Origin: an alpha proteobacterium MED-G10
GTDB lineage: Bacteria; Pseudomonadota; Alphaproteobacteria; Methylaequorales; Methylaequoraceae
Reading direction: 5' to 3'
NCBI GenBank assembly: GCA_002457065.1
Contig: NTKR01000001.1
Location: 1-64,000, forward strand
DNA: 64,000 nucleotides
Positions 47,918-53,541 of this stretch are shown here, one piece after another (within the stretch, counting starts at the first letter, position 1; every line of letters starts with the position of its first letter). The translations under genes were made by a program, and so were the position numbers. The notes beneath the pieces were generated by a model that ran no database searches, was not told where the DNA came from, and saw only the letters and a list, made by a program, of their open reading frames with translations.

Positions 47918-48410
47918 AATTGATAAATTTTGTCCCCTTTGGTTATATAAAGTTGTAATATCAGTTACTGTATATGATTACATTGTTAGAGACGTTGCAA
48001 TTTTTGTATCTACAAAAAAATTTGAAAGTTTTTTCAGTAAATACTATAAAGATTTAACTGTGGATGAAATAGAAACCGGAGCAACTTCATTTATCCAATT
48101 TTTAGGAGAAGTAAAGACAAAAGATCCCTTTTTACTGCTAAATCATTTTACATACAATCTAGTGGAAGAAACAAAAGCTAAGTTAGGAAAGCTCTTCAAA
48201 AAAGATCCATATGAAGGTGACTCTGAAAAAGAATACAGCTCAGAAGTTGCTCTAAAAGACTTTAAAGTTTTTTCATTTTCATGTAGATCTGGTTTAACAA
48301 AAAAAGCTCCTGTCGGATGGGAGATAAGAAATGAGCAAGATTTAGGTATACTAAATAAAGCAATTGAAAAAGAGTTTTCAATTGATGATATGATAGATAG
48401 TGTACTTTAA
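47910..48410 (+). CDS. Protein of unknown function (166 residues)
   Basis: I do not recognise a family. The protein lacks a signal peptide and clear membrane helices. It looks mixed alpha/beta, with a hydrophobic N-terminal third (residues 9-33), an acidic central loop near residue 118, and a conserved-looking C-terminus FSCRSGLTKKAPVGWEIRN. It overlaps NDUFS4 by 8 nt and ends 1 nt before the secreted methyltransferase gene, so it is part of the cysK run. Confidence 0.7.
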   Translation: MPKIDKFCPLWLYKVVISVTVYDYIVRDVAIFVSTKKFESFFSKYYKDLTVDEIETGATSFIQFLGEVKTKDPFLLLNHFTYNLVEETKAKLGKLFKKDPYEGDSEKEYSSEVALKDFKVFSFSCRSGLTKKAPVGWEIRNEQDLGILNKAIEKEFSIDDMIDSVL

Positions 48411-48411
48411 T

Positions 48412-49200
48412 ATGAGAAATCTATTTATATTTGTATTTTTGTTTAGTTTAATATTTGAAGCTAAAACTGCTGAAAGCGACGATTTATTAATTAGCTCAAT
48501 TAAGAACGAAAAAAGAAGTGAAAAAAATATTAAAAGAGACAAATACAGAAACCCTTTTGAGACACTAACATTTTTTGAAATTGATCGGAAAAAAAAAATT
48601 TTGGAAATTTCACCCGGCGGCGGTTATTATTCAGAGATAATTTCACATTATATGAAAAAAACAAATAACTTTTTTTCAACCGAATATCTTGTCCCACCAG
48701 TTGAAGCTGTTAGAAAAGCTCAAGAAAGATATAACAAATTCTTTGAGGAAAATAAAAAAGATTTTGGTCAGATTAATAAGATATACTTTTTAAAAAATAA
48801 TAAACTAGAATTTGAAGAAAAAAACTTTGACCTAGTTCTTACATTTAGAAACACTCATAACTGGCTAGGGTCAAATTCAGCAGGAAATGTATACCAAACT
48901 ATTTATGATGTAATGAACAAAGGCGGGATTTTAGGTATAGTACAACATAGAGCTGATGAAAAATCAAAATTCAATTTTAAAAATGGGTATGTTAAAGAAT
49001 CATTTCTTATAAGCTTTTTAGAAGATATTGGATTTAAACTTTTAGATAAATCCGATATCAATCAAAATACAAAGGATAAGAAAGACTATAAAAATGGAGT
49101 TTGGACACTTCCGCCAAGATTGGTTCTGGGTGATCTTGATAGACAAAAATATCTGGACATTGGTGAAAGTGATAGAATGACATTAAAATTTATAAAATAA
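48412..49200 (+). CDS. Exported class I SAM methyltransferase-like protein
   Basis: This protein of 262 residues has a signal peptide (about residues 1-20, ending EAKTAES). A Rossmann methyltransferase fold follows, with SAM motif I EISPGGGYYSEI (about residue 68), DLVLTFRNTHNW and GGILGIVQHRAD. This family of exported methyltransferase-like proteins (COG4798 type) is widespread in proteobacteria; SAM availability in the periplasm is unclear, so function is open. I prefer the ATG at 48412 over a GTG at 48400. Confidence 0.8.
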   Translation: MRNLFIFVFLFSLIFEAKTAESDDLLISSIKNEKRSEKNIKRDKYRNPFETLTFFEIDRKKKILEISPGGGYYSEIISHYMKKTNNFFSTEYLVPPVEAVRKAQERYNKFFEENKKDFGQINKIYFLKNNKLEFEEKNFDLVLTFRNTHNWLGSNSAGNVYQTIYDVMNKGGILGIVQHRADEKSKFNFKNGYVKESFLISFLEDIGFKLLDKSDINQNTKDKKDYKNGVWTLPPRLVLGDLDRQKYLDIGESDRMTLKFIK

Positions 49201-49201
49201 A

Positions 49202-49993
49202 GTGATACACTTCATAGTTGCTACAACCTCTGAGGCAAGACCGTTAATCGACTTTTTTAAACTAAAAAAAAAAAATTCTATTTCTAATTTTGTTTTTTTT
49301 GATAATGATGAAATCTCTCTTACTATTAGTGGAATTGGAAAAATAAACGCAGCAATGAGCGTCACGCACACCTATTATGAATTTAACAAAATTAAAAATA
49401 ATGTTTGGGTAAACTTTGGGATTGCAGGACATATTAGTCATAGTATAGGAAAAATTTTTCTTATAAATAAAATAGTTGATAAAGAAACTAATTATAAATA
49501 TTTTCCTCACATAATCAAAAACTGCAAATTAGACCAAAAAAGCTGTATAACTTACAGTGAACAAAATTTTTTTTATAATGATGATTTATCAGATATGGAA
49601 GCTAGTGGTTTTTTTATGGCTGCAGACAAATATTCAACTAAGGAACTGATTCATTCAATAAAAATTATTTCTGACAATAAAGAAGAAAAAATTGATTTTT
49701 CTGATAAAAAAAAATTATATGACATAATTAAACCTAATGAAAAAATGATAACTTCATACATAGAAAATATATATAAAATTTGGAAGAAGTTTTACTTCTA
49801 CAAAAAAACAATTGATGAAAAAGTAAAAAAAGTTCTTCAAAATAAAAATCTTTCATTTTATCAAAAAAAAGAATTTGCAAAAGTTTTAGAATATTACTTT
49901 CTAAATAGTGAAAAAAATTCATCTAAAACATTAGATTTTTCAAATAATTTTGCTGAAAAAATAAAATTAATTAAACGAAATCTGAAAATATGA
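49202..49993 (+). CDS. Nucleoside phosphorylase/MTA-SAH nucleosidase-like protein
   Basis: This 263-residue protein starts at a GTG one base after the upstream stop. The first 150 residues match nucleoside phosphorylase superfamily features: FIVATTSEARPL at the start, ISGIGKINAAM (about residue 43), FGIAGH, and SDMEASGFF, where Met-Glu resembles the ribose-binding pair and the preceding Asp the catalytic region. The C-terminal 110 residues are helical, Lys-rich and unlike standard MTAN. It overlaps the SPL-like gene by 4 nt, so the two are coupled. Possible role: cleaving 5'-deoxyadenosine or SAH generated by the partner, which is inference. Confidence 0.7.
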   Translation: MIHFIVATTSEARPLIDFFKLKKKNSISNFVFFDNDEISLTISGIGKINAAMSVTHTYYEFNKIKNNVWVNFGIAGHISHSIGKIFLINKIVDKETNYKYFPHIIKNCKLDQKSCITYSEQNFFYNDDLSDMEASGFFMAADKYSTKELIHSIKIISDNKEEKIDFSDKKKLYDIIKPNEKMITSYIENIYKIWKKFYFYKKTIDEKVKKVLQNKNLSFYQKKEFAKVLEYYFLNSEKNSSKTLDFSNNFAEKIKLIKRNLKI

Positions 49994-50958
49994 AATTTGA
50001 AAATATATATATAGAGGATGAAATTAAAAGTTTGAAAAAAACAAAAAGTATTTTGAGTAGAATTAAATATAAAAATATAATTTTTTGCGACAAATACACT
50101 GAAATATTTAATCCAAAAAATCAAAACTTTCGAATCCAAAAAATAAATCCAAATATAATTTTAGCAAAAAAATATGGAAAGTTTATTTTAAAAACACCCC
50201 CAAAATTTAATATTGGATTCAAATACAACTATTATTTTTCACATATGCTTAATTGTGTTTATGATTGTAAATATTGTTTTTTACAAGGAATGTTTAATTC
50301 AGCTAATTTTTTAGTTTTTGTTAATTATGAGGATTTTTTTAAGGAGATTGACTGTATTTTAACAAAAAATCCAAATAAGAAAATTTGTTTCTTCTCCGGT
50401 TATGATTGTGATAGTTTGGCCTTGGAGAAAATAACTAATTTTCTTAATTCTTTTTTAACTTTTTTTGAGCAAAGAAAAAACGCATTCTTAGAAGTCAGAA
50501 CCAAAAGTACTAATATAGAAGTTTTCAAAAAAATTAAACCAATTAATAATGTAATCATTGCATATAGTTTGAATCCAGAAGAAATTATTCAAAAGTATGA
50601 GCAAAAAACTCCAACTTTTGCAAAAAGACTTGAAAGTTTGCACTTATTACAGAGTCTAGGTTGGAGGGTTGGTATTAGATTTGATCCAATTTTTGTTTCA
50701 CATAATAATGTTAATATTTACAATCGCTTCGTAGAAAATATTTTTTTAAAGATAAATCCAAATACCTTGCATTCAGTAACAATTGGTGAATTTAGAATGC
50801 CGAATAATTTTCTTAACAAGATACTCAAGATTAGAACTAATGACTCACTTGAATTTTTAGAGTTGCATAATAACAAATTAAAGAAAAAAGAGAGTTATAG
50901 TTTATTTAAGAAAAAATTAAGAACCTTTGTAAGTGCAAGAAAAATTTATGAAAATTAA
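49990..50958 (+). CDS. Spore photoproduct lyase-like radical SAM protein
   Basis: This 322-residue radical SAM protein has the cluster motif Cys89-x3-Cys93-x2-Cys96, followed by F-LQG, which is the arrangement of spore photoproduct lyase (SPL). Cys140 in FSGYDCDS falls where SPL carries its H-atom donor cysteine (Cys141 in B. subtilis). The tyrosine after the third cluster Cys in SPL is Phe97 here; Tyr95 is kept. SPL reverses the UV thymine dimer 5-thyminyl-dihydrothymine; homologues occur in non-spore-formers with unproven substrates. It overlaps the nucleosidase-like gene by 4 nt. Confidence 0.77.
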   Translation: MKFENIYIEDEIKSLKKTKSILSRIKYKNIIFCDKYTEIFNPKNQNFRIQKINPNIILAKKYGKFILKTPPKFNIGFKYNYYFSHMLNCVYDCKYCFLQGMFNSANFLVFVNYEDFFKEIDCILTKNPNKKICFFSGYDCDSLALEKITNFLNSFLTFFEQRKNAFLEVRTKSTNIEVFKKIKPINNVIIAYSLNPEEIIQKYEQKTPTFAKRLESLHLLQSLGWRVGIRFDPIFVSHNNVNIYNRFVENIFLKINPNTLHSVTIGEFRMPNNFLNKILKIRTNDSLEFLELHNNKLKKKESYSLFKKKLRTFVSARKIYEN

Positions 50959-51335
50959 AACTTCTTTTGTTTTACCTCAAACTTTTTACAGTTAAATGTT
51001 AAAGAGGTAATTTTTCCATCATCATGTTTCTCAAAATTTAATACGAGCTGTCCACTATATCTTCCAATAATACCTGAAACATCACCATTGGAATCAGGAT
51101 ACAAAGGTATATCTTTTGCAGTCCACGAAATATTTGAATCAGTATTTTTGAATCTATCAGCAAAAAAACTTAATCCACCTATGTCAATTTTTTTTTTATC
51201 TGTATCAATTATTAAGAAAACATCTTTTACATCAAGACTTCGTACATCTATATAATTATTTGTACATATTAGATTTAGTTCATTTGAAAAAGAAATTTTG
51301 GGAAGAAAAAGAAGAAATAATAACAGCCTGATCAT
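50955..51335 (-). CDS. Secreted protein of unknown function
   Basis: This 126-residue protein has a signal peptide (about residues 1-17, ending SFSNE). The mature part has two cysteines (in LICTNN and FNCKKF) that could form a disulfide, and beta-rich composition. No family is recognised. It overlaps the 3' end of the SPL-like gene by 4 nt on the opposite strand. Confidence 0.65.
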   Translation of the reverse strand: MIRLLLFLLFLPKISFSNELNLICTNNYIDVRSLDVKDVFLIIDTDKKKIDIGGLSFFADRFKNTDSNISWTAKDIPLYPDSNGDVSGIIGRYSGQLVLNFEKHDDGKITSLTFNCKKFEVKQKKF

Positions 51336-51494: not shown

Positions 51495-52229
51495 ATGTGG
51501 AAAAAGAAAGTTTACATAAGTGATTCCGCTCAGCCATTCAGATTAAATAGAACAAAAATTGATTTATTTTTTGATTGCGAACGTTGTTTTGTCCTTGATC
51601 AAAAATTTGGTATAAAAAGACCTTTTGGGACTCCTTTGGTAATGAATAATAAAATAGTAAATACGCTTAAGGATGAATTAGAGATTTGCAGAGAAAAAAA
51701 ACAAATTCATCCTCAAGTTTTGGAGAATAATTTGAATTATATTCCCAATAACTTTGAGCTTCTGAATGATTGGAAAAATCCATTTAAGGGTGTAAAATAT
51801 ACTCACAAGAAAACTAATTTTTTACTTAATGGGACTATTGATGATGTTTGGATAAATAAAACTACAAAAAAAAACTACTGTTTAATTATTAAAAGTACTT
51901 CAAAAAAAGAACAACTGTCATATGAGCAAATATGGTCTGGATATTGGAGGCAATTATCTTTTTATACATATCTTCTGGAAAAAAACTCAATTGAAATGTC
52001 AAAAACTGGAATTCTTGTATTTATAAAAACTTTTGACAATTCTGAAAAATTCTCCAAAAGTTTATCATTTAATTTAAGTATCTTTGAAAAAATATTAGAT
52101 CTTGATTGGATTGAACCAACACTGTTAAACATACATAAGATTTTAAATAGTAACGAAATTCCAAAAAATTCAAACTATTGTAAATATTGCAAATATTATT
52201 TTAACATTAAAAACAAAATTAATGAATAA
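51495..52229 (+). CDS. PD-(D/E)XK nuclease-family protein, active site altered
   Basis: This 244-residue protein matches a PD-(D/E)XK family found in alphaproteobacteria and Parcubacteria: FRLNRTKIDLFFDCERCF (residues 15-32), GTPL, then GTIDDVWIN (113-121) and LIIKSTSKKE (130-139). In the family the last segment reads VDYK; here the Asp is Ile131, with Lys133 kept. Asp116 and Asp117 remain. Cys28 and Cys31, and Cys229 and Cys232 at the C-terminus, could bind Zn or an Fe-S cluster as in Cas4 and AddB. It overlaps the ATP-dependent ligase by 8 nt. Confidence 0.72.
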   Translation: MWKKKVYISDSAQPFRLNRTKIDLFFDCERCFVLDQKFGIKRPFGTPLVMNNKIVNTLKDELEICREKKQIHPQVLENNLNYIPNNFELLNDWKNPFKGVKYTHKKTNFLLNGTIDDVWINKTTKKNYCLIIKSTSKKEQLSYEQIWSGYWRQLSFYTYLLEKNSIEMSKTGILVFIKTFDNSEKFSKSLSFNLSIFEKILDLDWIEPTLLNIHKILNSNEIPKNSNYCKYCKYYFNIKNKINE

Positions 52230-53541
52230 TGCAGAGATTATAAAACTTATTGAATCATCGAATTCAAGACTTTTTAAAGAAAATATAATTCTTGAGCAAA
52301 TGAAATTGCAAAATAATATACTTTTCTCTGGTTTGTCATTAGCTTACAACAAACTACTGACCTTTGGTGTTAAGCAGCTTCCAATCTCTGATAATGATGG
52401 CACTGGAATAAATTGGTTAGAATTTAAGGAATTATGTGACCAATTAATTAAAAGAAAGCTGACCGGTCATGCTGCACGAGATAGAATCATTGAATTAAAA
52501 GATAAATCTGGGAAAGATGAATGGAATTTTTTTTATAAAAGAATTTTGCAAAAGGATATGAGATGTGGACTTTCGGAAAAAACGATTAATAATGTTGCAA
52601 AAAAAAATAATTTTGAAAATTACATAATTCCTGTTTTTTCATGTCAATTAGCGCAGGATTGTGAACTTCACAAAAAAAAGTTAAGCGGAAGAAAAATCTT
52701 AGAAGTAAAACTTGACGGAGTCAGGGCAATAACTGTTGTATACCCTAATGGTAAAATTGATATTTTCAGTAGAAATGGTAAAGAATTAAATAATTTCGAC
52801 CATCTTAAAAATGAAATTAATAGATTACTAGACATAAATCTAGTTTCAAAACCTATTATTTTTGATGGTGAAATCGTGAGTGAAGACTTCCAATCATTAA
52901 TGAAACAGATCCATAGAAAGAATTCATTGCAAAACAAAGATGCAAAACTTTTTATTTTTGATTTTTTACCACTTGAGGATTTTAAAAATGGAATTTACAA
53001 AAAAACTTTTGAAGATAGAAAAAATCTTTTAAAAAAATTTTACGAAAAGTTATTTTCAGAAAGTAAACTTATCAGACTTATGGATTCATTAAGTGTAGAT
53101 CTTGATACTGAAAATGGGAAAGATGAATTTAAAAAATTTAATAGTGAATCTATCATAAATGGCTATGAGGGTATAATGATCAAAGACCCAAGCTCTTTTT
53201 ATGAATGTAAAAGATCTACAACTTGGTTAAAATCAAAACCATTTATAGAAGTTTCACTAGAAGTAAAAGACTATGAAGAAGGTACCGGAAGAAATCAAGG
53301 TAAATTAGGAGCTATCATTGCTGAAGGAACTGATAACAATAAATATTTCAAAACTAATGTAGGGTCAGGTTTTTCTGATATTCAAAGAGAAAACTTTTGG
53401 ATAAAAAGAGATGAACTTATCGGGCAAATAATAGAAATTCGCGCAGACTCTGTAAGTAAGGCTCAAGACGGAAAATATTGGAGTTTGAGATTCCCTCGTT
53501 TTAAAACGTTTAGGGGTTTTGAAAAAAAAGAAAAATTATAG
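52222..53541 (+). CDS. ATP-dependent DNA ligase (accessory, single polypeptide)
   Basis: This 439-residue protein has an N-terminal DNA-binding region (residues 1 to about 150, with TGHAARDRI), the adenylation domain with motif I K163-x-D-G, motif Ia FSRNGKE, motif III FIFDFLP, motif IV YEGIMIKD, motif V TTWLKSKP, and a C-terminal OB fold. Chromosomal bacterial ligases are normally NAD-dependent LigA, so this is an accessory ligase. Its architecture resembles T4-like phage or archaeal/bacterial accessory ligases. No LigD polymerase or phosphoesterase domain or Ku gene is adjacent. It overlaps the PD-(D/E)XK gene by 8 nt. Confidence 0.9.
   Translation: MNNAEIIKLIESSNSRLFKENIILEQMKLQNNILFSGLSLAYNKLLTFGVKQLPISDNDGTGINWLEFKELCDQLIKRKLTGHAARDRIIELKDKSGKDEWNFFYKRILQKDMRCGLSEKTINNVAKKNNFENYIIPVFSCQLAQDCELHKKKLSGRKILEVKLDGVRAITVVYPNGKIDIFSRNGKELNNFDHLKNEINRLLDINLVSKPIIFDGEIVSEDFQSLMKQIHRKNSLQNKDAKLFIFDFLPLEDFKNGIYKKTFEDRKNLLKKFYEKLFSESKLIRLMDSLSVDLDTENGKDEFKKFNSESIINGYEGIMIKDPSSFYECKRSTTWLKSKPFIEVSLEVKDYEEGTGRNQGKLGAIIAEGTDNNKYFKTNVGSGFSDIQRENFWIKRDELIGQIIEIRADSVSKAQDGKYWSLRFPRFKTFRGFEKKEKL

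Follow-up and report, generated by a model that had tools for sequence, protein, structure and literature searches.

Gene organization of the locus

Two genes on the forward strand of the window (the whole 64,000-nucleotide stretch of DNA that was analysed) overlap by four nucleotides. The upstream gene (positions 49202-49993, GTG start, 263 amino acids) encodes a nucleosidase-like protein, hereafter NUC, and the downstream gene (49990-50958, ATG start, 322 amino acids) encodes a radical-SAM protein with the fold of spore photoproduct lyase (SPL), hereafter the SPL-like protein. The overlap was noted in a first-pass annotation of this DNA, and both reading frames indeed share the ATGA at 49990..49993; the same overlap occurs in most of 23 related loci.

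Upstream of the pair, also on the forward strand, is a gene for a methyltransferase-like protein with a signal-peptide-like start (48400-49200). Similar proteins are also encoded at distances of up to 5 kb from the SPL-like gene in several loci of Methylococcales. On the other side, a reverse-strand gene (50955-51335) encodes a small protein of 126 amino acids, again with a signal-peptide-like start, for which searches of Pfam and NCBIfam gave no matches above cut-off. It is followed on the forward strand by a gene for a Cas4-like PD-(D/E)XK nuclease that overlaps one for an ATP-dependent DNA ligase (51495-53541). In the window's family, the neighbours of the pair are this exported methyltransferase-like protein, the opposite-strand small protein, whose conserved location separates the pair from the nuclease gene, and the equally conserved nuclease and ligase, which possibly form a separate DNA-repair unit.

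NUC has the fold and catalytic residues of MTA/SAH nucleosidases

Residues 1-190 of NUC (49202..49771, forward strand) form a core with the fold of MTA/SAH nucleosidases (MTANs), as judged from the Pfam model PF01048, an AlphaFold model and Foldseek comparison with the PDB. The match to PF01048 (PNP_UDP_1) has an E-value of 2.9e-5 and, at 24.0 bits, is just under the cut-off of 25.1; matches to nucleosidase, futalosine hydrolase and MTAN models are weak and far below all of those curated cut-offs. The AlphaFold model, built on an alignment of the family, has a mean pLDDT of 93.8, and its top 50 PDB matches are nearly all MTA/SAH nucleosidases (E about 1e-12, TM 0.5-0.65).

The catalytic residues of MTAN are Glu12, Met173-Glu174 and Ser196-Asp197. 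Their equivalents in NUC are Glu11 (codon 49232..49234), which is Glu in 77 of 77 distinct relatives; Met132-Glu133 (49595..49600), which align with the VEMEA of MTANs and are conserved in 77 and 76 relatives, respectively, with one unknown residue at the Glu position; and Ser157-Asp158 (49670..49675), which align with AVSD and are each present in all 77. The family also has invariant residues of its own, such as Lys154.

The first-pass annotation had compared the N-terminal half of this protein to a nucleoside phosphorylase and described an added helical C-terminus of 110 residues. Membership in the PNP/MTAN superfamily is correct, but half of the protein is too small a share, since the catalytic residues reach position 158 and the model remains MTAN-like into a long helix that starts at residue 169. 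A helical extension does exist in the AlphaFold model (residues 191-263; 49772..49990, forward strand), although its length is closer to 70 residues. Most pairs have it, but it is absent from the relatives L019, L021 and L066 and from a group of short NUCs described below. NUC thus resembles MTAN and futalosine hydrolase (MqnB) in fold and catalytic residues, and differs from them in its shorter middle region, its extra C-terminal helices, its scores below every curated cut-off and its strict partnership with an SPL-family protein.

The SPL-like protein keeps the SPL fold, but not its radical chain

The SPL-like protein scores 62.4 bits with the Pfam SPL model (PF20903), above the cut-off of 27, and 85.4 bits with the NCBI spore photoproduct lyase model (TIGR04070), far short of the cut-off of 400. 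The model for the "SPL family radical SAM protein" (TIGR03886) can be aligned over the N-terminal region and core, with 32 bits here and 81 bits for a gammaproteobacterial relative, but its cut-off of 437 bits is not approached by the SPL-like protein. An AlphaFold model based on the family alignment (mean pLDDT 92.9) has as its best Foldseek match in the PDB the SPL of G. thermodenitrificans (GtSPL; 4FHG), with TM 0.82 and E 4e-16. Searches for viral relatives of the protein found none.

Similarity to SPL (SplB; PDB 4FHC) extends over the whole fold and includes the TK motif in the barrel. As the first-pass annotation had stated, Cys89, Cys93 and Cys96 are retained; they make up the CX3CX2C motif of the [4Fe-4S] cluster (50254..50277, forward strand) and are invariant in 98 of 98 distinct sequences. 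Tyr95, the Tyr that precedes the third cluster Cys in SPL as well, is kept across these 98 apart from one unknown residue.

The residues of the SPL radical chain are different. In a profile alignment, Phe97 (50278..50280) occupies the position of the radical-relay Tyr (Tyr98 of GtSPL, Tyr99 of B. subtilis SPL), a replacement that had been recognized correctly at first pass; this column is Phe in 93 and Tyr in 5 of the 98 sequences. Cys140 had been assigned to the position of the SPL H-atom donor, and here the alignment disagrees. Within Tyr138-Asp139-Cys140 (50401..50409, forward strand), it is Tyr138 that aligns with the donor, Cys140 of GtSPL (Cys141 in B. subtilis), and Cys140 of the window aligns with GtSPL Ser142. 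Tyr138 is conserved in 98 of 98 distinct relatives, and the Cys140 column contains 89 Cys, 7 Ser and 2 Gly. In B. subtilis SPL, the C141A and Y99F mutations each abolish SAM regeneration, and one 5'-deoxyadenosine is produced per repair event (PMC3742179). Because both radical-chain residues are replaced, the SPL-like enzyme is predicted from its sequence to produce one 5'-deoxyadenosine per turnover, and probably uses up SAM. Alternatively, Tyr138 or Cys140 may act in H-atom transfer, with SAM regenerated by another route.

The two proteins also diverge at the C-terminus. The GtSPL segment KRKYKWGRYGIGKY, which we take to be the DNA-contacting hairpin, is poorly aligned, the region around it is not conserved in the SPL-like family, and the model of the window's protein has helices in its place.

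These features bear on the idea, raised in the first-pass annotation, that the pair carries out light-independent repair of DNA photoproducts, with the SPL-like enzyme reversing a thymine lesion and NUC assisting. The full-length SPL fold speaks for such a role, as does the position of the pair beside the Cas4-like nuclease and the ligase in the window's family. However, the H-atom donor Cys is Tyr in every sequence, the relay Tyr is Phe in nearly all, and the C-terminal segment is not conserved; moreover, the repair-gene neighbours are not seen as conserved partners in other lineages, whereas a GT2 glycosyltransferase and a short-chain dehydrogenase (SDR) are (see below). The supporting argument from UV exposure at the ocean surface fails, because the pair is retained by methanotroph endosymbionts of the deep-sea mussel Bathymodiolus and the snail Gigantopelta (L071 and L102), whose habitat is dark. 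We consider photoproduct repair very unlikely, and the SPL-fold enzyme is probably no longer a photoproduct lyase. SPL-like proteins of organisms that, like the present hosts, do not form spores are commonly annotated as UV-repair enzymes. For this family, which is widespread and sharply defined, has replaced catalytic residues and differs from SPL in its near-obligate nucleosidase partner, that annotation is probably wrong.

The two genes are coupled across phyla

In all 23 relatives fetched, NUC immediately precedes the SPL-like gene, mostly with the four-nucleotide overlap; 22 of these genomes, including the window's own, belong to one family and the remaining one to another. When 84,980 species genomes were scanned, at least 483 proteins related to the SPL-like protein were detected. 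In the best 80 of these loci, NUC is adjacent in 31, which belong to Alphaproteobacteria, Gammaproteobacteria, Opitutaceae and one acidobacterium; those without an adjacent NUC are mostly from Methylococcales. Where NUC is not adjacent, exactly one NUC is encoded elsewhere in each of the 22 genomes tested, and four of these have it immediately next to a GT2 gene.

Of 369 genomes sampled evenly from one class, 49 have the SPL-like gene (all matches 438 bits or more), 58 have NUC and 46 have both, with the genes adjacent on the same strand in 40 of these 46. Fisher's test of co-occurrence gives a p-value of 1e-43, whose significance is overstated, as related genomes are not independent. A mirror-tree comparison of the two proteins yields a correlation of 0.91 (permutations reach at most 0.18). 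We do not count this as proof of coupling, since a species phylogeny common to both proteins produces the same effect. In a phylum-wide genome sample, the only match was in the window's own genome, and the family is therefore patchy.

The pairing is not a product of chance, because the genes are adjacent in all 23 relatives, mostly with the overlap, and are paired across phyla. Rare adjacency in such a survey would have counted against the pair; adjacency and co-occurrence instead uphold the functional coupling proposed at first pass. That this coupling is near-obligate in distant bacteria suggests a two-enzyme pathway not described before, and not the repair of UV damage.

A second SPL-family partner for NUC

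Among the 12 genomes of the 369-genome sample that have NUC only, 11 encode a short NUC that lacks the C-terminal helices. Nine stretches with short NUCs were fetched. A GT2 gene is located beside the NUC position in seven (L172, L173 and L175-L179), six of which also have an SDR gene, and the first type of SPL-like gene is absent from these seven stretches. All 11 short-NUC genomes encode, mostly at another place in the genome, an additional type of SPL-family protein, which is about 410-475 amino acids long and has an N-terminal extension; it is absent from all 40 control genomes. When this second type was sought in ten genomes with the first type, only cross-matches to the first type were obtained. 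Because every short-NUC genome carries the second type, we conclude that NUC is partnered by one or the other SPL-family enzyme. The second subfamily (L177, 6953-8383, reverse strand; L181-L189) has SGQ-[AS]-SDSL in place of SGY-DC-DSL.

Sugar-modifying genes adjoin the pair in other lineages

Outside the window's lineage, the SPL-like gene is immediately followed by an SDR gene in 61 of the 80 loci. In 15, NUC is preceded by a GT2 gene, and some of these have a phosphatase-like gene between the two. Nine loci have GT2, NUC, SPL-like and SDR genes in an unbroken row. Neither GT2 nor SDR adjoins the pair in the window's lineage. A close relative of the GT2 protein (257 bits or more) is encoded in 23 of 34 genomes tested, and a search of window-family genomes found none; GT2 as an obligatory partner was accordingly rejected.

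A candidate pathway of radical adenosylation and adenine removal

A comparable pair is formed by HpnH (adenosylhopane synthase) and HpnG (hopanoid phosphorylase), which also combine a radical-SAM enzyme with a PNP-family protein and are followed by sugar-modifying enzymes. HpnH adds the radical to diploptene, and the putative phosphorylase HpnG then removes adenine (PMC12583986). The resemblance would extend, by analogy, to the logic of adenosylation followed by depurination. The enzymes themselves are from other radical-SAM and PNP subfamilies, and neither NUC nor the SPL-like protein matches the HpnH (TIGR03470) or HpnG (TIGR03468) models. The window's genome has genuine HpnG and HpnH genes at another locus (L108, 1453-3176, contig C23), beside a squalene-hopene-cyclase-like gene.

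We propose, with a probability of roughly 0.5, that NUC and the SPL-like enzyme represent the core of an uncharacterized two-enzyme pathway; the proposal builds on the observed folds, catalytic residues, gene coupling and co-occurrence, on the GT2 and SDR partners, and on the Hpn analogy. In the order of steps that we infer, the SPL-fold enzyme would cleave SAM to the 5'-deoxyadenosyl radical, consuming SAM in each turnover, and the radical would most likely be added to an acceptor. NUC would then remove adenine from the 5'-deoxyadenosyl-containing product, turning the adenosyl adduct into a ribosyl one, and in many bacteria GT2 and SDR would complete the product. The notion that an MTAN-type enzyme handles 5'-deoxyadenosyl products was put forward at first pass, and the MTAN fold and catalytic set support it. 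Because part of the MTAN middle region is absent from NUC, its substrate may nevertheless be something other than an adenosyl compound. The situation in the window's lineage, where GT2 and SDR do not adjoin the pair and the search for a close GT2 relative found none, also weighs against the proposal.

A simpler scheme also suits the MTAN fold and catalytic set. The SPL-like enzyme could abstract an H atom from a small molecule in the ordinary way, with NUC only clearing the by-product 5'-deoxyadenosine, which is reported to be inhibitory to radical-SAM enzymes and to require removal (PMC8102628). However, a further strong enzyme of the PNP/MTAP type is already encoded in 37 of the 38 genomes that have the pair (in the window's own genome, the other PNP-family genes encode an MTAP-family phosphorylase and HpnG). 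NUC is therefore distinct from the housekeeping enzyme, and near-obligate pairing for general clearance would be without reason. To our knowledge, moreover, radical-SAM enzymes rarely need a dedicated enzyme for 5'-deoxyadenosine removal. We therefore regard clearance as unlikely and as a weaker idea than radical adenosylation, which we favour for this reason and because of the HpnH/HpnG precedent in the same genome.

Another pathway would act on modified nucleosides: NUC would free the base from an unusual nucleoside, the SPL-like enzyme would remodel the base or nucleoside, and GT2 and SDR would act on the sugar. In favour of this, SPL recognizes thymine nucleosides, and NUC has diverged from other members of the PNP family and has invariant residues of its own. 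No tRNA- or DNA-modification genes are recognizably linked to the pair across lineages, however, and we judge this scheme improbable. Queuosine-type salvage by a radical-SAM enzyme and a nucleosidase was considered separately and dropped, with no support from sequence and almost none from the literature searched.

Radical adenosylation followed by adenine removal could, more tentatively, be generalized to a biosynthetic pathway that occurs in Proteobacteria, Verrucomicrobiota and Acidobacteriota. There, a dedicated nucleosidase and either of two SPL-derived radical-SAM enzymes would make a ribosyl (formerly adenosyl) compound for elaboration by GT2 and SDR. SPL chemistry would then have been redirected, with radical adenosylation taking the place of DNA repair. 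A literature search found no published description of the NUC/SPL-like module. The two-enzyme system is present in cultured methanotrophs and may represent a new use of the 5'-deoxyadenosyl radical.

A shared motif order in two helical extensions

The C-terminal helices of NUC (49772-49990) and the N-terminal extension of the second SPL type (L177, 6953-8383, reverse strand) have a motif order in common, FT/FS-x2-E/Q-x2-QL. Comparison of the two with hhalign gives a P-value of 0.014 and a probability of 3%, a weak hint of homology. If the two are homologous, a domain has moved between the partners.
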